The translations under genes were made by a program, and so were the position numbers. Under the pieces are notes generated by a model, which was given only the letters and a program-made list of their open reading frames with translations, did no database searches and was not told where the DNA came from. From Heliocidaris erythrogramma (Eukaryota > Echinodermata > Echinoidea > Camarodonta > Echinometridae), in contig CM046859.1 in assembly GCA_025617745.1 (NCBI GenBank), positions 26,277,371-26,341,370 of the forward strand: 64,000 nt of DNA. Direction: 5' to 3'. Positions 5,521 through 62,651 of this stretch are shown here, piece by piece. Position 1 is the first letter of the stretch; each line of letters starts with the position of its first letter.

Positions 5521-6013
5521 TCTACAACAAAGCAATGAAAATATGAAATGAGCACATTATGTTAAAGAAAAGGAAAATAAATATTGCAATAACTTCAAAA
5601 TTATAATGATAAAAAATTGTTTGAATATCAATTTAATTGCATATTTAAAAACATGAAATTGATTTAAGAATAATGTGCCTACCAAATAGAATTGCTCCGC
5701 CGACATATGTTCCGGCGACAATTGCTCCGCCGAAAATTGCTCCGCCGATAATTGGTCTTCGAGAATTGTTCCAGCGACAATTGCTCCGCCAACAATTGCT
5801 CTGCCGACAATTGCTATTCGACAATTGTTCCAGCGACAACACATCTAAAACAAAGCAATGAAAATATGAAATGAGCACATTATGTTAAAGAAAAGGAAAA
5901 TAAATATTGCGATAACTTCAAAATTATGATGATAAAAAATTGTTTGAATATCAATTTAATTGCATATTTAAAAACATGAAATTGATTTAAGAGTAATGTG
6001 CCTACCAAATAGA
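5521..6013. repeat. 170-bp repeat pair around CAATTG minisatellite (copy A)
   Basis: Two direct copies of a ~170-bp AT-rich unit (5521-5689 and 5840-6010) start near ACAAAGCAATGAAAATATGA and end near TGCCTACCAAATAGAA. They flank a ~150-bp minisatellite (5690-5838) made of ~15-20-bp units with the palindromic core CAATTG (e.g. TTGCTCCGCCGACAATTG). The same arrangement occurs at 10210-10540 and 13029-13487. Confidence 0.85.
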
Positions 6014-10209: not shown

Positions 10210-10540
10210 GAGAAACTCAAACACATCTAAAACAAAGCAATGAAAATAATGAGCACATTATGTTAAAGAAAAGGAAAATAAATATTGCGATACCTTCAAA
10301 ATTATAATGATAAAAAATTGTTTGAATATCAATTTAATTGCATATTTAAAAACATGAAATTGATTTAAGAATAATGTGCCTACCAAATAGAATTGCTCCG
10401 CCGACATATGCTCCGGCGACAATTGCTCCGCCGACAATTGCTCCGCCAACAATTGCTCCGCCGACAATTGCTATTAGACAATTGTTCCAGCGACAACACA
10501 TCTAAAACAAAGCAATGAAAATATGAAATGAGCACATTGC
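10210..10540. repeat. 170-bp repeat and CAATTG minisatellite, copy B1
   Basis: One ~170-bp AT-rich unit, a ~110-bp CAATTG minisatellite (10388-10497), and the first 40 bp of the next AT-rich unit. That unit is broken off after GAGCACATT at 10540 by the 2.5-kb insertion. The unit resumes with TTATGTTAAAG at about 13029. Confidence 0.85.
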
Positions 10541-13028: not shown

Positions 13029-13487
13029 TTATGTTAAAGAAAAGGAAAATAAATATTGCGATAACTTCAAAATTATAATGATAAAAAATTGTTTGAATAT
13101 TAATTTAATTGCATATTTAAAAACATGAAATTGATTTAAGAATAATGTGCCTACCAAATAGAATTGCTCAGCCGACATAATGTTCCGGCGACAATTGCTC
13201 CGCCGAAAATTGCTCCGCCGATAATTGGTCTTCGAGAATTGTTCCAGCGACAATTGCTCCGCCAACAATTGCTCCGCCGACAATTGCTATTCGACAATTG
13301 TTCCAGCGAGAAACACATCTAAAACAAAGCAATGAAAATATGAAATGAGCACATTATGTTAAAGAAAAGGAAAATAAATATTGCGATAACTTCAAAATTA
13401 TGATGATAAAAAATTGTTTGAATATCAATTTAATTGCATATTTAAAAACATGAAATTGATTTAAGAGTAATGTGCCTACCAAATAGA
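13029..13487. repeat. 170-bp repeat pair around CAATTG minisatellite, copy B2
   Basis: Same arrangement as 5521-6013: AT-rich unit (entered near its middle at 13029), CAATTG minisatellite 13163-13307, and a second AT-rich unit to 13487. It is followed by the same LINE 3' ends. Confidence 0.85.
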
Positions 13488-24213: not shown

Positions 24214-24632
24214 CAATTGTCGGTGGAGCAATTTATTGTAGCGGAGCAATTGTCCGCGGGGAATTTGCTGGCGGAGTAATTGTCAGCAGAGCAATTGTCG
24301 CTTGAACATTATTGTCGAAGAACAGTTGTCGGCGGAGCAATTGTCGCTGGAACAATTGTCGAAGAGCAATTGTTGGCGGAGCAATTGTTGGCGGAGCAAT
24401 TGTCGCTGGAATAATTCTCGAAGACCAATTATCGGCGGAGCAATTGTCGGAGGAGCAATTTTCGCTGGAAAAATTCTCGAAGAGCAATTGCCGGCGGAGC
24501 AATAGTCGTATCTTCGGAGCAATTGTCGGCGGAGCAAATGTCTGTGGAGCAATTATCGCCGGAGCAATTGTCGGCGGAGCAATTGTCGGCGGAGCAATTG
24601 TCGGCGGAGCACATGTCGGCGGAGCAAATGTC
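24214..24632. repeat. CAATTG minisatellite, largest array
   Basis: About 25 units of 15-20 bp, such as GGAGCAATTGTCGGC and GGAACAATTGTCGAAG, in the orientation opposite to the arrays at 5690, 10388 and 13163. Each unit contains the palindrome CAATTG. Long open frames cross it on both strands (Ala/Ile/Val or Pro/Ala-rich). They reflect a period largely divisible by three and are not genes. Confidence 0.9.
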
Positions 24633-25127: not shown

Positions 25128-26386
25128 AGCTCACCTGAGCCTATGGCTCGAGTGAGCTATTGCGATGGAAATTTGTCCGTCGTCCGTCGTCCGTCGTGCG
25201 TCGTGCGTCGTCCGTTAACTTTTTACATTTTCATCTTCTTCTGCAAAACCCATGATCAGAATTCAACCAAACTTGGTAGGAATCATCCTTAGGGGTAGGG
25301 GACCCAAAGTTGCTAAAATGGTACATGTGGCCCCCAGGGGGGCCCAGGGGGAGGCCCCCCCCCCCCCAATTGTAAAAGCTATGTAAATTTCAAACATCTT
25401 CTTCTCCAGAACAAGGCATAGCTCAGACTTGGTATTTTGTATGGAGATACCTCTATAGATGAAGAATGAATGTTGTTCATGAAATTTCTCTGAGTGGCCC
25501 TATAGGGGCCCTGTGGGGGTAACATACTGGAGGGGGGGGGGGGGGCGCTGCCAGGCAAAATGTACATTCTGATCTTCTTCTCCAAAACACATGATCGGAA
25601 TTCAACCAAACTTGGTAGGAATCATCCTTAGGGGTAGGGGACCCAAAGTTGCTAAAATGGTACATGTGGCCCCCAGGGGGGCCCAGGGGGAGGGCCCCCA
25701 ATTGTAAAAGCTATGTAAATTTCAAACATCTTCTTCTCCAGAACCAGGCATAGCTCATTGGTATTTTGTATGGAGATACCTCTATAGATGAAGAATGAAT
25801 GTTGTTCATGAAATTTCTCTGAGTGGCCCTATAGGGGCCCTGTGGGGGTAACATACTGGAGGGGGGGGGGCGCTGCCAGGCAAAATGTACATTCTGATCT
25901 TCTCCAAAACACATGATCGGAATTCAACCAAACTTGGTAGGAATCATCCTTAGGGGTAGGGGACCCAAAGTTGCTAAAATGGTACATGTGGCCCCCAGGG
26001 GGGCCCAGGGGGAGGGCCCCCAAGTGTAAAAGCTATGTAAATTTCAAACATCTTCTCCAGAACCAGGAATAGCTCAGACTTGGTATTGTGTATGGAGATT
26101 TTTTTCTGGGTGGCACTATAGGGGGTCTGTGGGGTTAACATACTGGAGGGGGGGGGGGGGGTGGGGCAAGTTGTCCGCCATCCATAAACTTTTTACATTT
26201 TCAGCTTCTTCTCCAAAACCTATGATTGGAATTTAACCGAACTTGGTAGGAAGCTCAGACTTGGTATTGTGTATAGAGATACCTCTATAGATGAAGAATG
26301 AAAGTTGTTCATGTGCTAGAGAGAACATGCACCAGATGTGAATTGATGCACCTCAGGTGAGCGTCGTGCCCCCTGGGGCTCTTGTT
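25128..26386 (+). mobile_element. Nonautonomous element AGCTCACCTGAGC...GGGGCTCTTGTT with tandem monomers
   Basis: The left end AGCTCACCTGAGCC is followed by a (CGTCC/GTCGT)n tract, and the right end is CTCAGGTGAGCGTCGTGCC...GGGGCTCTTGTT. Inside are about 3.5 tandem units of 305-340 bp starting near 25245, 25584, 25906 and 26213 (key words CATGATCRGAATTCAACC, CCTTAGGGGTAGGGG, poly-G/C runs). There is no coding capacity. An inverted, shorter copy is at 57068-57870. Repeats of this design are common in marine invertebrates; the mobilising enzyme is not evident here. Confidence 0.75.
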
Positions 26387-48386: not shown

Positions 48387-48916
48387 TGCAGTATTGACTC
48401 CAAATAACTGAAAAGCAGTCAACTTTCCGCCTAAAAAAGATGCCACGAGCCGTTATATTTCTCTCAAAATTTGCTAAAATGTCAAAGCTTTTGCGCTAGT
48501 TGAACTGTGCAGATGTAGATTAACATTCTTTTTATAACAAATATTTTTAAAGCAAAGTATATTTTTATGCCATAATTTAATTGGGGTTATTGGAAAAATC
48601 ACACTTTGTTAAACATCAAGAAAAATGTGGGCGTCCTATCTGGCACTTCATATTCAAGTCGTTCGTAAAGGCATGCGTAACTTTACGAACAGCTTTATGA
48701 AACACCCCACTTGTGTAGCCCGAACCCCGCGTTCAGACCATTAAAGTGGCATTGTTTAAACACTGATGTAGCCCAATATCGATACTGAGATAGTGTTGAT
48801 TGAACATCCTGGCTTTTTGCGATGTAGGCCTATTATCGTATAATTGTTTAACACTTTCTGAAATCTTTGCAATTAATTGCTCGACGTATATATTTCTGGG
48901 AAACACCTTAGATGCA
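48387..48916. other. Non-coding DNA left of the large element
   Basis: Includes the direct repeat noted at 46979 and AT-rich DNA, ending in the target duplication GATGCA (48911-48916). Confidence 0.5.
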
Positions 48917-49726
48917 TACGGAAGCGTTAAAGTGCCATTCGACTTGACGACTTGTCGAGATATTTTATCTCGACAAGTCGACTTAATATCCATATTTTGT
49001 CGACTTGTAAAGATATTTATCTAACCATGTCGACTTAATAACTTTCATAAGTCGACATGGCGATATAAATTATCTTGCCAAGTCAACTTCCCAAAAATTA
49101 TAAGTCGACATGGCGACATAAATTATCTTACTAAGTCGACTTAACAAAAATACATGTCGTCATGGCGAGATATATTATCTTGCCAAGTCGACTTCCCAAA
49201 TATAATAAGTCAACATGGCGACATAAATTATCTTACCAAGTCGACTTAACAAAAAAATTATGTCGTCATGGCGAGATATATTATCTTGCCAAGTCGACTT
49301 CCCAAAAATTATAAGTCGACATGGCGACATAAATTATCTTACCAAGTCGACTTAACAAAAATACATGTCGTCATGGCGAGATATATTATCTTGCCAAGTC
49401 GACTTCCCAAAAATTATAAGTCAACATGGCAACATAAATTATCTTAGCAAGTCGACTTAACAAAAAAACTATGTCGTCATGGCGAGATATATTATCTTGC
49501 CAAGTCGACTTCCCAAAAATTGTAAGTCAACATGGCGACATAAATTATCTTACCAAGTCGACTTAACAAAAAAATTATGTCGTCATGGCGAGATATATTA
49601 TCTTGCCAAGTCGCTTCCCAAAAATTATAAGTCGACATGGCGACATAAATTATCTTACCAAGTCGACTTAACAAAAATACAAGTCGTCATGGCGAGATAT
49701 ATTATCTTGCCAAGTCGACTTCTACA
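48917..49726 (+). repeat. Left terminal array, GTCGACTT minisatellite
   Basis: A ~165-bp unique-like end is followed by about six units of 105-107 bp. Each unit is two ~53-bp half units (AAGTCGACATGGCGACATAAATTATCTTACC and ATGTCGTCATGGCGAGATATATTATCTTGCC types) and contains GTCGAC palindromes. It lies in inverted orientation to 61873-62645. Confidence 0.9.
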
Positions 49727-49797
49727 AATATATCACTGACTACACAAATACGATCACGTGGAGTCGGCGTTAAGAATTACAGTCAAGTGCAGTCATC

Positions 49798-49827
49798 ATG
49801 GTCATGGATTTAGTCTTCGTTCTCTGG
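49798..49827 (+). other. Candidate first coding exon just inside left array
   Basis: ATGGTCATGGATTTAGTC... (10 codons) is followed directly by the consensus donor GTAAGA, about 70 bp inside the end of the array. It mirrors the position of the RING gene start at the other end. Its phase (0) does not by itself match the integrase body acceptor (phase 1), so another small exon would be needed. Weak evidence. Confidence 0.25.
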
Positions 49828-50380
49828 GTAAGAAATTATTTAAAATTTTGTACATTTTTTAATGCTAAAACAATATCCTCTTTGAAACAGTGATTTTAGA
49901 AAGTTGTGATTTATGGGTCGGGGGGCAGGGGGTTTGTCGGTTACTCGGATTTTGTTTGGAAGTGGCCGCGTGGGTCTAGAATAAACCCATCTTTAGAATC
50001 AAATTTCTAGTGATACTAACAGGTTTAGGGATTATTCGATTACCATTGAACACTAGAAAGTTAGAAATTAGTAAACAGTAATATACAGTAATTAGTTGAA
50101 ACTTTGGCATAATTGGTCACATGCATGCTTGCCATTATTTCAATGGGCACCGAAAGGCTAAATATAGACTGAGGTCATCGATTTCTATTTTCTTAGTATG
50201 TGCTATTAAAGTAGCCTACTGCATGTAAAATGTTGTCTATTGGTGCATCTATTTATATAAAAAAAACCTTTACAACTCCACAAAGTTACAGCACAAATTG
50301 AGGACCTTGGTCTTTTAATAACAGCAATGTGGATTGAAAACATTCGACAATCGTAAAAGTATTCTGCAGTGGAACAACGG

Positions 50381-50450
50381 CCACCGTGGCGGGTATCTGA
50401 AAGGGGTCGCACAGTGCCAGTGAGGTACCCGTCACGGTGGCCGCGTTGGT
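50381..50450. other. Imperfect 65-bp hairpin
   Basis: CGGCCACCGTGGCGGGTATC pairs with GGTACCCGTCACGGTGGCCG around a ~25-bp loop. It could be a short foldback or small-RNA-like hairpin. Confidence 0.5.
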
Positions 50451-50502
50451 TAGATTGAGGCCAAAGCGTACAAAATAGGTCTTGGGTCATTCAAAAAATT
50501 AA

Positions 50503-51286
50503 AGGACCTATGCAATGCTTATGCATATTGACTTGTGTTGATTCATAATACCCCGATCATCACTTATGTGGCCAAAAGAATATCTAAATGCATGTACGTC
50601 ACTGGCGGATCTAGCCAGATTAGACACAATACATTGGAGGGGCACACCATTGTGCACAAACAATTGTGCCCCCGAAATGGTATTGTATGATACCCGGCTA
50701 GATCCGCCACTGTACGTGCCTTATATTTTATAATAAGTTTTCTGCCATTTTTCTTCACAATGCTTGGAAACGCCCACAAAAAAGCTCCCAAACCAAGATT
50801 CTGTCAGTGACATCATCTGTCAACCACTGCCATCACTGCTTAATTGCCAATGCAATTGGCAAAAGTACTGGAATGCACCTTCCCCTAAACTGAACATAAC
50901 TTGCATGGTTTCCATACCATGACCACTTGGTGCCTTTCCATTGTTGTCCATGTATTAGAACTTTCCTAGCGAAAGTATTTGGGTTGGTGTTATGTACAAG
51001 CATGCAACGCTATTGTAGAAGGATGCCCATCTTTGGGGAAGGCGCATTCCAGTGTCTTTTGTCAATTGCATTAGTAAGTAAGCAGTGATTGACAGATGAT
51101 GTCACTGACAGAATCTTGGTTTGGGAGATTTTTATGGGCGTTTCCAAGCATTCTGACGAAAAATGGCAGAAAGATTATTATGAAATATATGGCACGTATT
51201 TATATATTCTTTTGGCCACATTAGAGTGATGATCAGGTTATTATAAATCAACACAAGTCAATATGCATATGCATTGCATAGGTCCT
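50503..51286. mobile_element. TTAA-flanked MITE AGGACCTATGCAATGC
   Basis: AGGACCTATGCAATGC at the left, its inverse at the right, TTAA at 50499-50502 and 51287-51290. Arms of about 330 bp share TGACTTGTGTTGATT, AAGATTCTGTCAGTGACATCA and the AATGGACAACAATGG centre. The left arm is interrupted by 50600-50712. It lies in the presumed intron or promoter space of the integrase gene. Confidence 0.87.
50600..50712. mobile_element. 113-bp MITE nested in the TTAA element
   Basis: CACTGGCGGATCTAGCC and inverted GGCTAGATCCGCCACTG ends, duplication TACGT at 50595-50599 and 50713-50717. The other arm of the host element preserves the empty site (…AAATACGTGCC…). hAT-like ends. Confidence 0.85.
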
Positions 51287-51741
51287 TTAATATTCAATAT
51301 TTTGGCGTTGACGGTCTATGAACAGGCCTGTTGCTTTCTATGCTTTAAAGTATACATAGAAGTATATTTTGGGAGGCGTTAAAGTGGGAATTTGTGTTAT
51401 TTTAAGCACATGTACATGTCTCATTCTTATTGTCATTGAGGCCTGCACATGATCCACGTACACGAAAACGGGGAAAATTGTATTTTTTTTTTCAGCGCCA
51501 GGCAGAGAACCCGCGTATCTCGGTAAGGGTATCAAATTCAGAGGCAATCCTTGGCTAAAATTTTTGTTAGGGGTATGAAAATCAGAGATAGTAACATGTT
51601 TTTATGTTCAGTGTATTAAAACTACTCCTACTTTAATCCCCGTTTATAGGGTGCTTTTCAGAAAGTGATTGTACGCGGATGATGTACAGGCACCACTGAG
51701 ACATAACCACCCCCACCCCCCCCCCCCCCCCCCCCCCGCAG

Positions 51742-52934
51742 CTGAACTGGGACGACATGCCGCTGTATTTACCAGAGACGAGTTAATAGAACATTATTTC
51801 CAGGATGGATACATTGCAGCAGAAATCATCGGGTTTTTGTATTTAAGGCATAGTATAATAATAAGTCTTCGTCAATTACGGCGTGTTTTGAGACGGTTGA
51901 GACTTCGACGTCGGGAGCAGTCACCGTTAGAAGATGTGGTTGATGCTGTACAACGTGTTATGAATGCTTCAGGTGGTTCGATGGGTTACCGTTTTATGTG
52001 GCGGGTGTTAACCACACGTTACCACTTACACGTATCACAAGAAACTGTGAGAATAATTCTTCGAGTTTTAGAGCCTGAAAGAGTGGATGCGAGATCTGTC
52101 AGAGCATTTCGACGTCGCCAATACTCCAATAAAGGTCCGAATTACTTGATTCATGTCGACGGATGGGACAAATTAAAACCTTACGGGGTATCAGTCCATG
52201 CTGCAATAGATGGATTCTCCAGAAGACTTTTGTGGATGAAAGTGGGTCGCAGCAATAAAAATCCCAGATACGTAGCGCAATTCTTTTTGGAGTACGTGCA
52301 GAAAATTAACGGAGTACCGAGAGTCATCCGTGCTGATAGGGGAACAGAGAACTCTGTGCTTAGAGTCATTCAAACAGCGTTAAGATTCAACGACCGTGAT
52401 GAAATGAGCGGCGAAAGAAGTTTCTTGTATGGCAGATCCGTGGCAAATCAGCGTATTGAGGCCTTTTGGTCATACTTCCAAAACCTTTGTTCTCGCTTTT
52501 GGGTCAATTATATGAAAGACCTTCGGGACAGTGGATTAGTGGATACATCTAACGACGTTCACATTGAATGTATTAGATTCTGTTTTACTGACTTAATTCA
52601 GAGAGACTTCACTCGTGCAGCCGAAATGTGGAATCAACATCGAATTCGCAGTCAAAGAAACCTTGAATGCCCAAGTGGAAAACCCGACGTACTCTATTTC
52701 CTACCAGAAGTATACGGATCAAAGGACTATAAATTTCCGTTGCGATTTTCTGATGACAATATTGAGGAGGTAAAACGCATCTATTGCGATGAGCCTCCCA
52801 AGTATGGATGCTCCCCAGCCTTAGCTGGTGGACTTTCGGAACTCATTGGAAACAATGTGGATCACTTTGCGATGCCAAATTCCCCCGAAGAAGCCACACA
52901 AATGCTACTTTGTCTGATCGACATTTTTGATTAA
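51742..52934 (+). CDS. rve/DDE integrase-type transposase (IS3EU-like)
   Basis: About 397 open codons to TAA (52932-52934). The N-terminus is helical (DELIEHYFQDGYIAAEIIG) with a helix-turn-helix-like SLRQLRRVLRRLRLRRR. Next is a conserved GYRFMWRVLTTRYHLHVS segment and the RNase-H-fold catalytic core: first Asp in YLIHVDGWDKLKPYG, second Asp in RVIRADRGTENS, Glu in NQRIEAFWSYFQNLC. The C-terminal part includes SGKPDVLYFLPEVYG. The triad is intact, so it could cut and join the TACGG ends. The open frame continues upstream to 51669 only through a Pro run encoded by poly-C, without an ATG. The poly-C tract plus CAG at 51739-51741 looks like an intron 3' end, so I start the exon at 51742 (phase 1) and expect an upstream exon. 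It resembles stand-alone rve-like proteins annotated in many animals and fungi. Confidence 0.8.
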
Positions 52935-53178
52935 AATGCTGTTGCTTTCTATTAAGAACGTATATTAAATTCACAATAGTAGAGAAATTTGGCATGGTTG
53001 AGAACTTGAGATCAGAGACTTCAGCCTGATTTTGAAAAACTGTCAATATGTTTAGTTCCTCAATAATTTACGATGTTCCACCTTACTGAATGTGGACGAG
53101 TCGACTTGTGTTGATTTTGAGTATTACATACATATCCAGAAGGGTGATTAAATATCAACATAATAATATTATATCGAA

Positions 53179-53184
53179 ATAAAT
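53179..53184 (+). promoter_or_regulatory. Polyadenylation signal AATAAA
   Basis: AATAAA lies about 245 bp after the integrase stop codon, giving a plausible 3' UTR. It is followed 50 bp later by a strong hairpin. Confidence 0.5.
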
Positions 53185-53236
53185 ATCATCTGATTTTACA
53201 GTAAGCTTGTTCTTTATTTGTTATAAACTTTTTGTT

Positions 53237-53273
53237 ATAAAGTGGCAATATGACCGTGATATTGCCACTTTAT
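53237..53273. other. Perfect 15-bp stem, 7-nt loop hairpin
   Basis: ATAAAGTGGCAATAT-GACCGTG-ATATTGCCACTTTAT, extended by a bulged GTTA/TAAC. It lies just after the presumed polyadenylation site of the integrase gene. Role unknown. Confidence 0.7.
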
Positions 53274-53428
53274 GTAACGAGATTATATCATTCAGAATGA
53301 AGATTGATACGTAAATTATACAAGAACTTTCGAATGATTGCCCTCTGGAGAAAAGTGTTTTTTTTTTAGTTTCCAAGTGTTCACTCAAAACGTTAGGCCT
53401 TTGTATTAAGCCGTTTTGTTTTTCTTAA

Positions 53429-54320
53429 AGGAGAATTAACCCCTGAGTACAAATTTACTTATATTGAAAGGTGTAATATATTCCTACTTATTGGCCTAAA
53501 TCATTTTCTAATAAGATATCAGAAAAGGGTATAAATAAAGATATTCCAACACCCGGTATCGTCTCCTACTCATTTACATGGGGGTTGCCATTTTCTTGCT
53601 GATTTGGATTTGTACATGAACCATTGAGAAATGTTCCGGTCAGGAAGATATTTTGAATCCAAGACCTAAATTGCTTTTCTTCATTACCTAAAATCCCATA
53701 TGTGACGAAAAATATAAAGTGGGTGTTTACATGATTTATAAAAATTAAATCTTTATAATGATACTTTTAAATTGTCTGGTTTTGCTTAACAAAAATCTAT
53801 TTTCTTGGGTTTGCCAAACAGAGCAGTATGCAGCATGCATTCTGACTTTTCAAGTCCCATTATCCGAAAGCAGGTGAATGCATAGTTTGCTGCTATAGAT
53901 GCTCAGGGAAGAAGCATCCATAAAATTTGAATTAATTTGCTCCGTCCATTGCGTCACAGTATCTAGAAAATAGATTTATATTAAGCGAATATCGATTTTC
54001 AACAGAAATATATAAGGAAATCTTCAGTTTAAAAATAAATTGACATATCTATTCTATATTTTTAATCTCAAATGGGTTTTTAATTTTGAAAAAGGCAATT
54101 GGGCATTTGGATTAAGAAAATCTTCTTGTACACATAAAAAAATGGCAGCCCCCATGTATTGGCAGACGATACATATTGCTAGCAGATGATAAATTTTGCT
54201 CAGAAAATCTTGATTCGTATCGATCTCGTATATTTTGACGCGAAGCCATATAGTCTAACAAGTAGGAATAAATAACACCTTTCAACACTATCGTCTTTAT
54301 TGTTTGAGGTTAATTCTCCT
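53429..54320. mobile_element. TTAA-flanked MITE AGGAGAATTAACCC
   Basis: Starts AGGAGAATTAACCCCTGAG and ends with inverted GGTTAATTCTCCT. TTAA is at 53425-53428 and 54321-54324. The arms also share GAAAGGTGTWATWTATTCCTACTT. The ends resemble those of 31249-31827 (AGGAGAAT), so both may use the same transposase. Confidence 0.82.
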
Positions 54321-54324
54321 TTAA

Positions 54325-57067
54325 GGTATTTGCTAATCTAGCTACCTATTAACTCAAGGGAGCTTCGCGGGGGAGCTCCCTGGAGTTAGCTACCTATATA
54401 CAATTCGAGTGTTAATAATTCTGAATTCTTCTTGTTTATACACGTTGCATTATTGGTCAAATTTGTAAAATTAGTATAAAAAACACAAAAACAAAACGGA
54501 AAAGCATAATGCCCATCATGCAACATGGTTTATATAATTGATACTTTTGTTAGGCCTTATCATTGGAAAGAAAATAATTCTCCTTGAGAAAATAGGCCAA
54601 TCATCATCAGAACCACTTTGAGCTTAACTTAATCAGGTTTGGATTAGAAACAAACAAACAAAACACATGGGACCTTAAAGTAGCCATGCAAAGATACTAA
54701 ACATGAATAATATTTCGTGATATTGCAAAAAGAGTTCATGCCAACCCCAGTAATTACATTTCCCGACCTCACGGAAAAGACTTGTGTAACATAAAGCGAG
54801 AAAAATACAATCCCCCTTTCCATTTGAAAAACCTACCGAAACTCGCCATTCGTGCATCTATGACGTCACTGTTTGCACATTCTTTTAGTCTATCTCGGTA
54901 ATTCGTGGTCGATTTTCTCCCCAATTTCAGTATGTTGTAAGCTGAGACGATTTTCTGTCGTAAGAGTGCCAACCATTTTTTTCAATTAAATGACGGGATC
55001 ATAGTTAAAAAATACGATTAAAGGCTACATCTCAGAAATTTTCGTTTTACGTGTTATGGCTATGGAAGGTCAATTCCTTTTAATTTGTGTCTTGACAATG
55101 TTCTTTTGGTTGTATCTCGGTTGTCCTCGCTCAATTTGCTCCCAAAGTTGAATATGATTTTTAATATTATTGTTCTTTCGCAAATTTGACAACCATTTTT
55201 TTTTTTCATTCAGGAGACGATCAAATCATACAACCCAATCTTGATTATGGTAATGGGAAATTAAATGTAAATTTAAATGTAAATTTAAAGGTGAAATTTT
55301 CCTTTCAAACGGCTCGGGTCATGGATTGAGTTTTATACCAACACGCAATTTTCTAAATATACAGTCATGATCAAGGATTCCCCAATTAAGAAGATGATGA
55401 TCATCATCATAAGATCGCTGTCGGATGCTGCGGATCACTGTATTCGTCTCCGTGAAGTCACGTCTAGCTATTTTTCGTTTTTTTTTTTTTTTTTTTTTTT
55501 TTTTTTGGGGGGGGGGGGAGGGGGAGAGGCAGGAGTGTGCCCTTTTCACCTGAGGAAGTTCCCCTTATTAATTGCCACCCCTACTTTCCTTTAAATAATA
55601 GGTGCCTGTTACAAAATTTTTTACTGCTTTTGATAATTACACAAGGACTACTAAAATTTGAGAGGTGCTTTTACTTTGACATACAGTACTTCCAGATACC
55701 AAATACCTCCATACCAGATAACAAAATTGCTTCATACCACAGGCAATGGAGATGAAAACTACTTTGAAACTTGTTTAAGATTCCACTCCTTTCACGTTAT
55801 CATTACTTGTATCTGGGTTTCACTGCAATAATACATGCAAATTTATTTAGTTTTGTGTACTCTCACACTGTACAGAAAGTATTATTTTCCCCCTCTTTCC
55901 CCTTTCCTCTTCCTTCTTTGATCCTATCACTGTGTGCTTAGTTCCAATTATGTTAATTGAGAGTACTTTATATTTGTATTGGGGTTTTTTTTCATTGTGC
56001 TTGAAAGTTACTCCCCTTCTCCCGAGCTCCTTTTCTCTCCTCCTCCCTTTCTTTCTCTCTCACCCCTTCTCTCATTTCCTTCTTTTTGTGCTATCTTTCT
56101 TCTCCTTAACTTTCAACCACTTAATTGGGATTCACTTGAGGAAATGAGGCCCTGGGGAGGAATCAGCTTTGGTGGTGGTGGTTCGGGGGGGGGGGGGGGG
56201 GGGTTTCCATCGGGATCAGTTGTGGTGGACCGGGAGAGCTGTGGGGTGGGGGGTCTTCCCCCTTTCTTTCCTTTTTTTTTTCTTTCTTTCTTCTCTCAAC
56301 GTTGATTATTCCCCAGGGTCTCATTCTCATTCTTGTGTAAAGTATTTTCTTTTTAAGTCTGCAACCCTAGTACAGTGTATTAGATTTCAAACAATAAGAC
56401 AAATAGACTCAAAAGGCATTTATCTGAAAAATTAAACAAGTTTGTTGGTAATATTCTCCTTAACAATTAGATATCTACGTATGAAACAACAGTTTGACAT
56501 AAGGACCTATAAGATCACAACTGGAGGAAGTGTATTTACACTGTAGAAACATTAACATCCACCTATTTGAACTTACTACATGAACCTGATTTGACATGAA
56601 TGACAGGAGTGTTGGCAAGATGAACAGCATATGTGTTGACTATAACAAAAACAACAACAAAAACCCAGAAATAAACAAAACCTCACAACAGGAAAATAAG
56701 TAATAACAAACAATACAATAAATCCAAGTACCCGAATTAACATCTTAGAGAATAAATGACAAAAAAAAATTGAAGTAGAATTAGTAGATACATCATTTTG
56801 GCAAAGTCAGCACACCCCATGATTATAAAAAAATGAAACATTTTGATTAGATTTGAAATTAGACTTGGGAACTTTACTGAAATTGTCTCATGAAAGATTC
56901 ACGAAAGAATTTTAAACTAGCAAAAAATTTGCGATTTTTTTTTGTTTTCGGTCTTCATAACAATGAAACTCACTTGTTCAAGTACTTTGAACTTAAAAAC
57001 AGCAAATAAAATATCTTAGACTTTCATAATAAATCGGACCAAATTTCGGCTTCAGATTCACAATGTA
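54325..57067. other. Non-coding interior of the large element
   Basis: Holds a short foldback near 54345-54405 (TAGCTACCTATTAACTCAAGGGAGC and inverse), a diverged repeat pair near 54890-55010 and 55110-55210, a T/G homopolymer tract at 55477-55520, a pyrimidine-rich stretch at 55880-56110, and a G run near 56187. No exon could be supported on either strand. Confidence 0.5.
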
Positions 57068-57870
57068 AACAAGAGCCCCCGGGGGCACGACGCTCACCTG
57101 AGGTCGATCAATTCTGATCTGTCGCATCTACAAACAAAATACCAAGACTGTGCTATTTCTGGATCTGTAGCAGAAGATGTTTGAAATTTACAGAGTTTTT
57201 ACCATTTTAGGCCCTCCCCTTGGGCCCCCCTGGGGGCCACATGTACCATGGACAATTTTCATTCTCCATATATAGAGGTAAATCTATAAACAAAATACAA
57301 AGACTGTGCTACTTCTGGATCTGGAAAGAAGATGTTTGAAATTTACACCATTTTTACCATTGGGGGCCCTCCCCCTGGGCCCCCCGTTGGACAACACGTA
57401 CCGTTTTAGCAACTTTGGATCGCCTAGCTGCTCCTAAGGATGATTTTAAGTATTTTATGATTAAGTACAATTAAAATCTGATCATGCCTTTTGAAGGATA
57501 ACAATAAAATGCATATTTCCCCTGGTAGTGCCCCCTCCAGCACGATATCCCCTACAGAGCCCCTATGGGGCCACCCAGAGATATGTCATGAACAACTTTT
57601 ATTCTTCATATATAGAGGTATATACAAACACAATACCAAGACTGTGCTACTTCTTGATCTGTAGAAGAAGATGTTTGAAATTTACATAGTTTTTACCATT
57701 TGGGGCCCTCCCCCTGGGGGCCACAGGTACCATTTTAGCAACTTTGGATCCCCTACTCCTAAGGATGATTCACACCAAGTTTGGTTAAAATCCGATCATG
57801 CGTTTTTGAGAAGAAGATGAAAATGTAAAAAGTTTACGGGACGACGGACAAATAGCGGTCGCAATAGCTA
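57068..57870 (-). mobile_element. Inverted copy of the AGCTCACC element
   Basis: Starts AACAAGAGCCCCCGGGGGCACGACG and ends near GCAATAGCTA. It contains about 2.5 monomers related to those at 25128-26386 (CCTAAGGATGATT, GGGCCCTCCCCCTGG). Confidence 0.75.
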
Positions 57871-58938
57871 AAAACAAAGAAATCCTTGATTTCGCCATCA
57901 CAAAGTTGTGAGGCATTCATACAGAGAGAACTATACATTTTGCAATGTCTGATTGTAAAAATGGGATTACCTATTGATATATGAAACAAATCTGTTCTAT
58001 GTAAATATACCAAGTTTACTCACTTTACTTGGATAACTTGAAAAGTTGGGTGCTTTTTTTTAAAGAGCTATTTTCAGATTTACCCAATTACTTATCTGCT
58101 GGATGAAGGCATATCAAACATAATGGGAATAAACTCTTCATTTTTAATGTTAAAACACTTTAAAACATGGTTGAAACAAGTGGAAGTAAAACAACTTTTA
58201 ACATCTTTTTCTAATGTTATTTCCACAACTTCTACTAACATGATGACAGCTACGAAGTCAAACGATAGTACAAAATGAATCTCTGCCTCCAAGAACACTA
58301 CATGTACTTTTGTTTTACAGAGCATAATGTATAATATATTAACCTCAATGCTGCTGTAGATATTTTCAAATTTCCATAATATATGGCAGCCATCTTAGAT
58401 CTTTAAAAAAAGGTCTGTCGAATGTGCTTTACATTACCATTGCCCACTAACATCAGCATTTACTGACACTGGGAACAGGATCAAGTGCCAGATGCATCTA
58501 TATCATGATCATAAATGTTCACTAGAACCATTAAACAGAAAGCTAAAATCTAAAGCATCATTGTGGGACTGCACAGAGATACATTTTTTAGGTACCTATC
58601 CAATACACTGCCAAAAAACATAAGTCAATGGCAGTAAACAACCTCAAACAGATAAATAACTTGACCTATTGGTAAAATTCCTCAGGAAGGAAGAACAATA
58701 GTTATGAATCTCAATCATGGAAAAAAGTTGAGAATATTATTTTTTCCGGGATGTTATTTGTTAAATCTTAATTTAATTAACTTAAGTCATTTTTTTCTGA
58801 TTGTAACGACACAAAAACTGTGAACTATAATTATGCCTTTACGTATGATTTCATCTTCACTTCCCTGTGGAGGAGAAAAGGCAAAATGTTGATTTGACTA
58901 AAAGAACATAAAAGTGGAAACTATTAAGCAGCATAGTT
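57871..58938. other. Non-coding; 3' side of the RING gene
   Basis: AT-rich DNA. A 77-codon frame on minus at 58092-58325 has no recognisable domain or splice context. Probably 3' UTR and intergenic sequence. Confidence 0.45.
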
Positions 58939-61812
58939 TCAGATAAACAAGCTGTGGACAGCAGTGATATCTTGTTTGCAAAATGGGCATTTATTCGTAG
59001 ATTCTTCGATGTATGTACTGCAAGGAAGGCACAGTGTATGCCCGCACGGAATGAAAAAGCTCTCCTTTGGACGGTCGCAGCATATGCCACATGTTCCTTG
59101 AGGCTGAGGCCCGGACTTGAAGAGAACCTGCAGAGATGGTGATGGAAGAAGGGGAAGAAATAATGAATATTCGGATTGATACCATTACAACAATTCAGTT
59201 CACAACAAAATCTTTTACCTTATTGCTCAATCTAAGAATTAAATGCATCTTCAAGATAGAATACTGCAAGTAAAAAGACCGAGCCTGAGTATTTTTCCAA
59301 AATGACAACTGAACGGTTTCAAATTGGTGAAAGGTACCCATGAGGTCATCCCACGAGCTCAACACCATATGGCCCATGAGCTAGACAAATGCAAAAGGCC
59401 CCACAAGTCATACAGCCCAAGAGCTAGACACTAAATAAAATACATGTAGGCCCACGAGTTCGTCAATAGGCAAATACGTGGGCCTAATCGACGTAGCATC
59501 GAGCTCATGGGCCATATTTGCCTAGTGTCGAGCTTGTGGGCCGCCTAACTAACAGTGTCCAGCCTAACTAACAGTGTCCAGCTCATGGGCCTTATTTGCC
59601 TAATGTGTACTCGTGGGCTATAGGACTCGTGGGTGTCGAGCTTGTATACCCACTGTATTACGCAGTTCATCTCCAGGCTGATCTCTCTGCTGGTGCAGTA
59701 ATATTTCTAATGCCTCATAATTATGTAAACGTGCATTCCATCAGATTAGAATGGGTGGATATCTTTTAATGTTCTTACCTTTCGTTTCATCCATTACTTG
59801 AATGACTGTCTTCTTGCTCACAATGTATGTGTCACACAAATCCAACCACTCGTCAAACTCCTCATCGAAGACTTGGAGGAAGTAGCTGGACTGTGCCTCA
59901 GGGAATAACTGAAATGAGTAAAGAAAAGATTAGTTATTAAGTTTATCTCATTTTGCAAATCAGAAAAAAATTCAATCTGCCGAACAAATATGCAGAGATT
60001 ATAAGCCTTACTTCCACTCAATTTTCTTAAGACCATAGCTAGCATTGGTGTAACGTTACTTTTTGAGTAGTCCATGAAGCCATCATACATGGCCCATAGA
60101 TCTAACGACCTCTATTGACTCTCAATTTTTCAACACTTATAGTACAAAACTTGGTTACACTTACATGTAGTTACAGCCTAATATTAAAAATAGCTAGAGA
60201 AGGACTAGACAAGTGATAAACAACAGCAAGTGCTAACTGTTACAGCCCCATCAGAGTACAAACAGAACAATTATACTGGAACTCATACTAGTAGGTCCAT
60301 TTCCCATTTCCCATCGAGTGGAACCCCTTGATGAGTGACGATGTCTTAAACTCACCGTCAACAAACACATTTCAGAAGGCCATCATTAGAGCCTTCTAAG
60401 TATGTAAGCACCCCCCCCCCCCCACACACACACACACACACTCTCTGTGTTTATGCCCAGCAGGGCCCTGCATCGTAGGCTACACATCCAGATCAAGATC
60501 ACCATGAATATTTGTGCTTTGTAATTAATACTGACAAGTATTTAATTAGATCACATTTAATTAGGCTCCCCAAGAAGAAAACACACAAGTGACAAAGGGA
60601 TGTAGGGTCTAGAGCAGAGAGAGAAGGAAGGAAGAGAGATGGGGCTATATTCATAATAAAAATTATAGAGAGAAATATAATAATCATTGGACATTGATTT
60701 AGTGTCCACAATATAAAAAAAAAATGAGTTCACATCAATTCTTCGTTCCCAGTCAGCAGCAAAGCCAAGGCCAAACTTAAACTTTAAAGCAAACATTTAA
60801 CAGCCTAATTAGATATAAATCTTCATTCCATGACATTGCAGAAATTCCCTGATCATATCAATCAACCACAGTCAAACTGAAAAAAAAAGATGAAGTTAAA
60901 AGAGCAGAAAAAAAAACACACGCACACACAATTAAGAATCCCGTCATGAATATGGATAGCGGTGTGCACGCAATAGACCCACCACATTACCCGTAATTAA
61001 TCTAGGCCGCTGGTGCAGGGGAAGAGCTCCTCCAATTCCTGCTGAGTCGAGAGTGAATTGCAGCAAGGATTATTCACGAGCTAATCTAACCCTAAAAATA
61101 GGCATTTTACCTCACCTGAATCGTAAATAATGGCGATGATATTCCATTTGGACTAATTTGTGATGGTTCTTGTCCCTTTTTGAAAGAAAAAACTCGCCAT
61201 TTGGGGCGCCCCAAATAAGAGGCTAGCGAAATAGGCCTAAGAGTAAGAGTAAGAGTTAGAGAATATTCGGTCTAGTCTGGACCGGTGCGAAAGCACATAC
61301 GTTAGCGCCCTAATATATAATGTCAATAGTCTATCATAAATGAGAAGCTTACCCCCGAGGCTAGGCCTAGGGCCTAGGCGCAGGCAGATCCTATCGCCTA
61401 TCAGTCTAGTCCAGCCCTATAACCTAACGAACTCGTTATGTTAGAGGTCCTATACTAACTTAGATGTTACTTTAATTTTTTTTTAAGTCTAAAATTTAGC
61501 TAGGCCCTATCTAACAGCTAACGTTAAAAGTAGATCTAACTTAACTAGGTCGAGATATATGACTCAGATTGCGGCATTACGTACCTCTTCACAGCTGGCT
61601 ACAAGTGTAGCCTTTGTTGCCCCTTTGGATATAAATTTCTTTTTTGCATGGGTCTGGTACTTGAAGAGTACCGCAACAAGTTCACTAGTGTCAGTGTCAC
61701 TAATGTCAGACGCCATGATTGGTAGATCTACTGGTGTAGTCTGTAACAAAGTTAGAGTCTGTACTGTGGGCTTTGTAGGCTTTTTAACTTCCAAGATCGT
61801 CGCATCTGCCAC
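58939..61812 (-). CDS. PB1-like N-terminus + C-terminal RING finger protein (spliced)
   Basis: Exons on minus: 61812-61585 (76 codons, donor GAG|GTACGT), 59908-59779 or to 59798, possibly a 45-nt exon 59263-59219, and 59127-58939 (TGA). Start is ATG 61812 or, in frame, ATG 61716 (MASDISDTDTS). Exons 1-2 give ELVAVLFKYQTHAKKKF ... FLQVFDEEFDEWLDL, the pattern of a PB1/ubiquitin-like fold. The last exon gives CGICCDRPKESFFIPCGHTL ... CLPC ... CPFCKQDI, a complete C3HC4 RING of the XIAP/Mindbomb C-terminal type, predicting an E3 ubiquitin ligase. The strong exon 2 donor at 59779 (AAAG|GTAAGA) leaves phase 1 while the RING exon starts in phase 0. So either CAA|GTAATG at 59797 is used or an exon is missing from my model. 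Transcription would start about 60 bp inside the right terminal array. Confidence 0.7.
59338..59650. repeat. Degenerate GGCCCAYGAGCTAGACACTA repeat in RING gene intron
   Basis: About eight short copies, in both orientations (GAGCTAGACACTA, TAGTGTCGAGCT, TCATGGGCCATATTTGCC), so the region can also fold back. Confidence 0.6.
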
Positions 61813-61872
61813 TCTTTCTACACATTAAGTGCATGCATGTATCCACGTGGTAGACAAAAAAAAAAAAGATCA

Positions 61873-62645
61873 CGACATAATTTTTTTTATAAGTCGACTT
61901 GGTAAGTTAATTTATGTCGCCATGTCGACTTATAATTTTTGGAAAGTCGACTTGGCAAGATAATATATCTCGCCATGACGACATAATTTTTGGGTTAAGT
62001 TGACTTGGTAAGATAATTTATGTCGCCATGTTGACTTATAATTTTTGGGAAGTCGACTTGGCAAGATAATATATCTCGCCATGACGACATAATTTTTGGG
62101 TTAAGTCGACTTGGTAAGATAATTTATGTCGCCATGTTGACTTATAATTTTTGGGAAGTCGACTTGGCAAGATAATATATCTCGCCATGACGACATAATT
62201 TTTTTGTAAAGTCGACTTGGTAAGATAATTTATGTCGCCATGTCGACTTATAATTTTTGGGAAGTCGACTTGGCAAGATAATATATCTCGCCATGACGAC
62301 ATAATTTTTTTGTTAAGTCGACTTGGTAAGATAATTTATGTCGCCATGTCGACTTATAATTTTTGGGAAGTCCACTTGTCAAGATAATATATCTCGCCAT
62401 GACGACATGCATTTTTGTTAAGTCGACTTGTCAAGATAATAGTGTCGCCATGACGACATAATTTGTTTTGTTAAGTCGACTTGGCAAGATAATTTATATC
62501 GCCATGTCGACTTATAAAAGTTATTAAGTCGACATGGTTAGATAAATATCTTTACAAGTCGACAAAATATGGATATTAAGTCGACTTGTCGAGATAAAAT
62601 ATCTCGACATGTCGTCAAGTCGAATGGCACTTTAACGCTTCCGTA
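61873..62645 (-). repeat. Right terminal array, GTCGACTT minisatellite
   Basis: About six units of the same ~105-bp repeat as 48917-49726 in inverted orientation, ending in the matching ~165-bp outer segment. One outer unit has diverged (ATAGTGTCGCC near 62440). Confidence 0.9.
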
Positions 62646-62651
62646 GATGCA

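Follow-up and report, generated by a model that had tools for sequence, protein, structure and literature searches.

An element bounded by palindromic minisatellites

We analysed a 64-kb stretch of contig CM046859.1 of the echinoid Heliocidaris erythrogramma (hereafter the window). Positions 48917-62645 of this stretch form one element of 13.7 kb that carries a transposase gene and a RING gene, which read inward and are thus convergent (Table 1). The tips of the element read TACGG...CCGTA, and an exact GATGCA on both flanks constitutes a 6-bp target-site duplication (TSD). Over their outer 180 bases the two ends are 97% complementary (5 mismatches, none of them in the first 35 bases), and the whole terminal inverted repeats (TIRs) are 94% alike over 782 aligned columns (~780 bp). 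A preliminary description of the window had proposed that two distant repeat arrays are the ends of one mobile element with one inward-reading gene at each end, and both proposals are borne out. No third exact end was found within the window, where one match with 3 mismatches lies at 51369.

Tandem Repeats Finder reports 53/106-bp arrays at 49047-49728 and 61872-62545. Two kinds of 53-bp unit alternate in these arrays, which comprise 13 units at the left end and 12 at the right; the order from tip to inside is identical. The units are imperfect palindromes, and a hairpin whose arms measure 15 bases lies in the left tip region. The two TIR arms have 36 and 30 palindromic positions, whereas mononucleotide shuffling gives means of 0.08 and 0.03, and six of seven stretches fold better than all 200 of their shuffled counterparts. 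Units that occupy equivalent places in both arms are more alike than units of the same kind at other places (0.935 versus 0.919; P 0.0025), which is a small effect.

The main exon of the transposase gene encodes an integrase core of the rva_4 type (PF24764, E 1e-31) and matches HTH_21, a helix-turn-helix (HTH) family, at the Pfam cut-off. D139, D198 and E239 are invariant across 29 aligned sequences. The translation of the main exon has no cysteine N-terminal of the DDE core, consistent with a transposase that lacks the HHCC motif. An AlphaFold model of the protein (mean pLDDT 82) matches, with low TM-scores, the DDE enzymes IS21 IstA, MuA, TnsB and retroviral integrases. Identity to the best homologue is 79%, and the named ones among the best 120 of 629 come from a sea cucumber, corals and a mussel. 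This integrase had been called intact. The claim holds for the main exon, which is open to its stop, whereas candidate exon 1 at the start of the gene is out of phase with the exon that follows and is thus uncertain.

A signal-peptide-like hydrophobic leader is common among these IS3EU-type transposase homologues. The best 120 were reduced to 63 cluster representatives (70% identity), of which 12 lacked the anchor and 15 had a leader of fewer than 25 residues; 29 of the 36 left pass a hydropathy cut that 2.5% of 120 proteins pass when an internal stretch serves as control. Such a leader is odd for a nuclear enzyme, and read-through of introns in some gene calls may contribute. No relatives of the transposase were found in viral contigs. 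A 16-base sequence from the end of the element has exact matches in 26 viral-contig stretches, one in each, which we take as chance. Prokaryote contigs yielded two loci, both in one metagenome-assembled genome of a sponge symbiont and probably due to host contamination.

When the exons of the RING gene are joined, the product has a C3HC4 RING (Pfam, E 2e-12) with all eight zinc ligands, and the solved structures nearest to it in sequence are the RINGs of IAP, CBL and RNF168 proteins. The N-terminal domain matches no Pfam family up to E 10, PB1 included, and its one match in the PDB is an antibody chain at E 1.6. The earlier assignment as a 'PB1-like/RING protein' therefore stands for the RING, with PB1 unconfirmed and an exon (exon M, described below) missing from the window copy. 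With short models that lack this exon as queries, the protein collection contained no homologue of the RING protein at E 1e-3; one such search returned 12 candidates, all weaker than this value, and another returned none. A six-frame scan of 49741-61860 gave no Pfam family above its cut-off besides those named here.

Table 1. Coordinates of the element, its genes and nested repeats in the window
Feature	Position	Strand	Remark
Left TSD, GATGCA	48911..48916	.	sequence
Left TIR: 13 alternating palindromic units of 53 bp behind a palindromic outer part with tip TACGGAAGCG	48917..49728	+	
Candidate transposase exon 1 (MVMDLVFVLW)	49799..49828	+	uncertain; 51-base surroundings identical in 8/9 copies
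Nested inverted-repeat element	50495..51294	.	present in 8/8 other copies compared, some with further inserts
Candidate transposase exon 2 (APGREPAYL, compare AP..YTAAEL of homologues)	51497..51523	+	27 bases; 51-base surroundings identical in 9/9 copies
Transposase main exon, open to stop, with HTH and a DDE core (D 52158, D 52335, E 52458)	51742..52934	+	
Nested inverted-repeat element	53424..54325	.	absent from copy C3a, present in the remaining copies compared
RING gene exon 3, C3HC4 RING	58939..59127	-	strong acceptor 59127 (phase 0), alternative acceptor 59096
AGTTCACAACAAAATC in RING gene intron 2	59197..59212	.	point where the fully read C4, C7a and C9 have 5-8 kb extra, including exon M
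RING gene exon 2, donor phase 1	59779..59908	-	
RING gene exon 1, ATG at 61716	61585..61716	-	
Right TIR: 12 palindromic units, tip CCGTA	61870..62645	-	
Right TSD, GATGCA	62646..62651	.	sequence

Copies of the two-gene element across the genome

We searched the H. erythrogramma genome (1.06 Gb, 26 contigs) for other copies, which are labelled by contig (for example C1, C2, C3a and C3b). The 16-base end, whose genome-wide search had been advised earlier, occurs at 218 places (102 and 116 on the two strands), compared with none for the reversed control. Pairing of adjacent convergent ends within 30 kb, applied to 100 of the 218, gives 26 pairs, 18 of them shorter than 5 kb and eight spanning more than 13 kb. 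Integrase and RING sequences are present in all eight long intervals, the integrase of C7a being broken.

The transposase is found at at least 17 loci (105 of 249 candidates were scored, and the transposase counts are lower bounds). At 11 of these it is full length and 99-100% identical, and at six it is broken. RING exon 2 occurs at 16 places, all within these loci and always with the gene convergent to the transposase. As to whether integrase and RING gene always travel together, they do so at 16 of the 17 loci, the exception being C13:36621040, which has no RING exon 2. RING exon 3 is present at 15 of the 16 (14 at 98-100% identity; C11a at 88% over part of the exon), and the remaining 16 matches to this exon in the genome reach at most 50% identity.

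Ten elements, that of the window and nine others, were read at both ends. All carry TACGG..CCGTA, the motif by which the ends were sought, and measured elements extend from 13.7 to 27.8 kb. Exact 6-bp duplications, each of a different sequence, flank seven of the ten (GATGCA, GTTTAG, CTTCTG, AAAACT, TGTATT, GATTTC and GTCATG). For C10, C11a, C11b, C13a, C14 and C19b one end each was read, and the second was not found in the DNA read. The copies are collinear, and aligned blocks of the window copy and C2, the shortest other copy, are mostly 95.6-99.8% identical. Outside arrays and gaps, the window copy differs from eight others by 0.26% substitutions in its non-exon part and by 0.32% in its exons (P=0.47). 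A 2.2-kb segment is shared by six copies and is missing from the window, C2 and C10. Furthermore, two short derivatives consist mostly of array, one of 749 bp (C1:35556984-35557732, TSD GATTAG) and one of 825 bp without a TSD (C1:12323716-12324540). The element has therefore moved as one unit with both genes, making 6-bp duplications; this movement is recent, and it has left short derivatives.

At C8:35524575-35619196, six ends lie 15-25 kb apart, all on the + strand and with no opposite end among those listed, which is probably a tandem segmental array.

An exon missing from the RING gene of the window copy

In the fully read copies C4, C7a and C9, intron 2 of the RING gene contains a segment of 5-8 kb bounded by a 15-16-bp direct repeat, AGTTCACNACAAAATC, of which the short copies keep one. 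Exon M is located in this segment, on the same strand as the RING. Its acceptor lies in phase 1 and agrees with the strong exon 2 donor, while its donor lies in phase 0 and agrees with the strong exon 3 acceptor. The four predicted exons of C9 (1, 2, M and 3) encode an open protein of 285 amino acids. At 99-100% identity exon M is restricted to seven of the 16 RING-bearing elements, with two occurrences in C9.

In the window copy, a direct join of exon 2 to exon 3 at the strong sites shifts the reading frame, and the RING is lost; two weaker junctions would keep it. Because the phases of exon M fit both neighbours and this direct join frameshifts, the window copy probably derives from a longer form by deletion of exon M from its RING gene. 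As judged from its sequence, the window copy probably makes no normal ligase.

Related loci with HECT partners

Exon M has 12 weaker relatives in the genome, one 64% identical and 11 at 31-38%, eight of these within open frames that span 326-752 codons. Four face an IS3EU-type integrase (38-43% identity) in convergent orientation, at distances of 9 kb (C5), 8 kb (C21), 18 kb (C11) and 31 kb (C7). For a fifth, on C15, an integrase fragment is located on the same strand at a distance of 4 kb. The exon-M-like domain is followed by a HECT match above the Pfam cut-off of 23.9 bits on C5 (25.4), C21 (28.2) and C7 (25.2), and on C11 by a match of 16.2 bits, below that cut-off. The C5 and C7 HECT genes are nearly identical in the parts compared, and the two integrase-HECT pairs look like one family in which the pair occurs twice. 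On C5 and on C21, integrase and HECT gene likely lie within one element each. Tandem arrays whose units are palindromic by eye precede the C5 and C21 integrases.

Animal G2/M-phase-specific HECT ligase-like proteins combine a QVR..GGG..FFPNG-type domain with HECT. The family of the window differs from these proteins in that its catalytic domain is a RING.

A second IS3EU-type family is represented by 7,232 bp at C7:24167036-24174267, with an integrase of 42% identity, tips TACGGAGCCCC and the TSD TATACC. It shares the layout of the window element: its two ends are palindromic arrays of a 21-bp unit, in 23 and 14 copies, and this unit is unrelated to that of 53 bp. The right side of this element also holds an inverted piece of the transposase start. 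Other relatives in the genome include weak exon-M and RING matches paired on one strand at C20:3027181-3036744 and C7:8766925-8771636, with no integrase nearby among the matches listed; it is possible that these are host or old relatives of the ligase gene. An integrase of 47% identity on C19 lies in a locus that contains a masked stretch.

Comparison with known transposons

IS3EU elements have TA..TA ends, 6-bp TSDs and an integrase-like DDE transposase without the HHCC motif (PMC10045372, PMC12730594), and the fungal TET-bearing families have TAYGG..CCRTA ends, 6-bp TSDs and an alpha-kinase gene opposite in orientation to the transposase (PMC12730594). The element of the window shares the ends, the TSD length and the type of transposase with IS3EU/GingerRoot, and a second gene opposite to the transposase with the fungal families, so that the fit to IS3EU proposed in the preliminary description is supported. 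It differs in its ubiquitin-ligase-like second gene, its palindromic minisatellite TIRs of ~0.8 kb and the size of its copies. An alpha-kinase partner was considered and rejected: the genome has six alpha-kinase matches, at two places on C5 (4.27-4.38 Mb), near none of the integrases listed.

Styx of Zymoseptoria likewise combines an IS3EU-related transposase and further genes with 6-bp TSDs and solo TIRs; it is fungal and has four open reading frames, and the accessible part of its description mentions neither a ligase nor a palindromic array (PMC10853768). Galileo and Tetris, foldback elements of Drosophila, resemble the present element in having long TIRs with internal tandem repeats (PMC3688188, PMC4079207), a feature seen here in the arrays of 13 and 12 units and in the 749-bp derivative, which is almost pure array. 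The repeats of Galileo contain multiple transposase binding sites (PMC3688188). Galileo belongs to the P superfamily and has a THAP domain (PMC3688188), whereas Tetris is apparently non-autonomous and has TSDs of 8-10 bp (PMC4079207). By title and abstract, and with Repbase Reports and most subscription papers outside this scope, no publication listed connects a ubiquitin ligase to IS3EU or to any other animal transposon.

A transposon with a proposed accessory ubiquitin ligase gene

These features make it highly probable that the element is a DNA transposon of the IS3EU/GingerRoot kind with an accessory E3 ligase gene, which has been mobile recently and whose copy in the window has lost the middle exon of that gene. 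The HTH part of the transposase would bind the repeated palindromes of the long TIRs, which would act as multiple transposase sites like those of Galileo (PMC3688188), and would pair the ends. Like related integrases, the DDE core would join the TA ends to a target whose strands are cut 6 bases apart. The second gene would encode an accessory E3 ubiquitin ligase (N-terminal domain, GWLH/QVR-GGG domain, RING), which might aid the element either through the tagging of a host silencing or repair factor or through control of the transposase. Because four other IS3EU-type loci have a convergent gene with this middle domain, three of them with HECT, such elements seem to have a ligase partner as a regular component whose catalytic domain can be exchanged. 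We lean only slightly towards a broader proposal, in which IS3EU elements of this animal lineage are two-gene systems of a transposase and a ligase (with a shared middle domain and a HECT or RING end) whose palindromic minisatellite binding sites arise anew in each family.

Several results weigh against the proposed transposon with a ligase partner. Exons are not more conserved than the rest of the element among copies, so that no selection for the ligase is visible; with so few substitutions, the copies are young. Nine of the 16 RING-bearing elements are without exon M, and exon 3 is absent from C19a and partial in C11a; therefore an intact ligase is unnecessary in cis. The frame of exon M is broken at an A-run in C7a and C4, two of the three long copies read, where an assembly error is possible. 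C3b, C4 and C7a, three of the ten elements with both ends read, have no TSD. Beyond this family, seven of the 12 weaker relatives of exon M lack a neighbouring IS3EU-type integrase among the matches listed (105 of 249 integrase candidates were scored), the DNA read around the C5 and C21 pairs showed no TIRs, and no ligase was noticed in the second palindromic family, which was read without a Pfam scan.

Some of these points would also be expected if the RING gene were an inert passenger, a trapped host fragment that is carried since the element tolerates large inserts. The lack of exon conservation, the absence of exon M from so many copies and length differences of 5-8 kb within the gene favour this explanation, but we judge it unlikely: the gene accompanies the transposase at all but one locus, C9 has an open product with matching splice phases, relatives of the middle domain stand convergent to other IS3EU-type integrases, and no host copy above 50% identity was found in the genome. 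It is less probable still that the exon M segment was inserted later into intron 2 and that the short form of the window is ancestral. Although AGTTCACNACAAAATC on both sides of the segment resembles a target duplication, the phases of exon M match the strong sites of two exons whose direct join frameshifts, a six-frame search of the C9 segment found no transposable-element domain of Pfam, and exon-M-like domains are present in HECT ligase genes elsewhere.

Tandem-repeat-built long TIRs are typical of foldback elements (PMC4079207), and this would allow an element of another superfamily (for example Mutator-like) with an IS3EU resemblance only. Such an origin is very improbable, as the 6-bp TSDs and TACGG..CCGTA ends agree with the TAYGG..CCRTA and 6 bp given in PMC12730594, and every long interval contains an rva_4 integrase-type protein. 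Chance pairing of two unrelated arrays is refuted by the likeness of the TIRs, their common TSD and the presence of both genes in all long end-to-end intervals. Independent solo arrays are rejected as well, given paired ends with exact, different 6-bp duplications in seven of ten elements.

If the transposon does carry a ligase as proposed, IS3EU offers a natural test case for the use of the host ubiquitin system by a DNA transposon, and an exchange of HECT for RING behind a shared domain would be a striking replacement of a catalytic domain. One genome offers near-identical copies, deletion variants and short derivatives together. Moreover, palindromic minisatellites in an animal genome can be the ends of a transposon.

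Further repeats in the window

A repeat family in inverted orientation occupies 57068-57851, inside the element, and 25203-26386, with pieces 77-88% alike. Duplicated blocks of the window contain 15-bp arrays of AATTGCTCCGCCGAC at 5690-5839, 10391-10472, 13162-13327 and 24214-24632, the last of these inverted. A similar array unit, CGACAATTGCTCCGG, lies upstream of the C5 HECT gene (L074, 3116-3564), and because of this likeness the AATTGCTCCGCCGAC arrays may be the ends of another such element.

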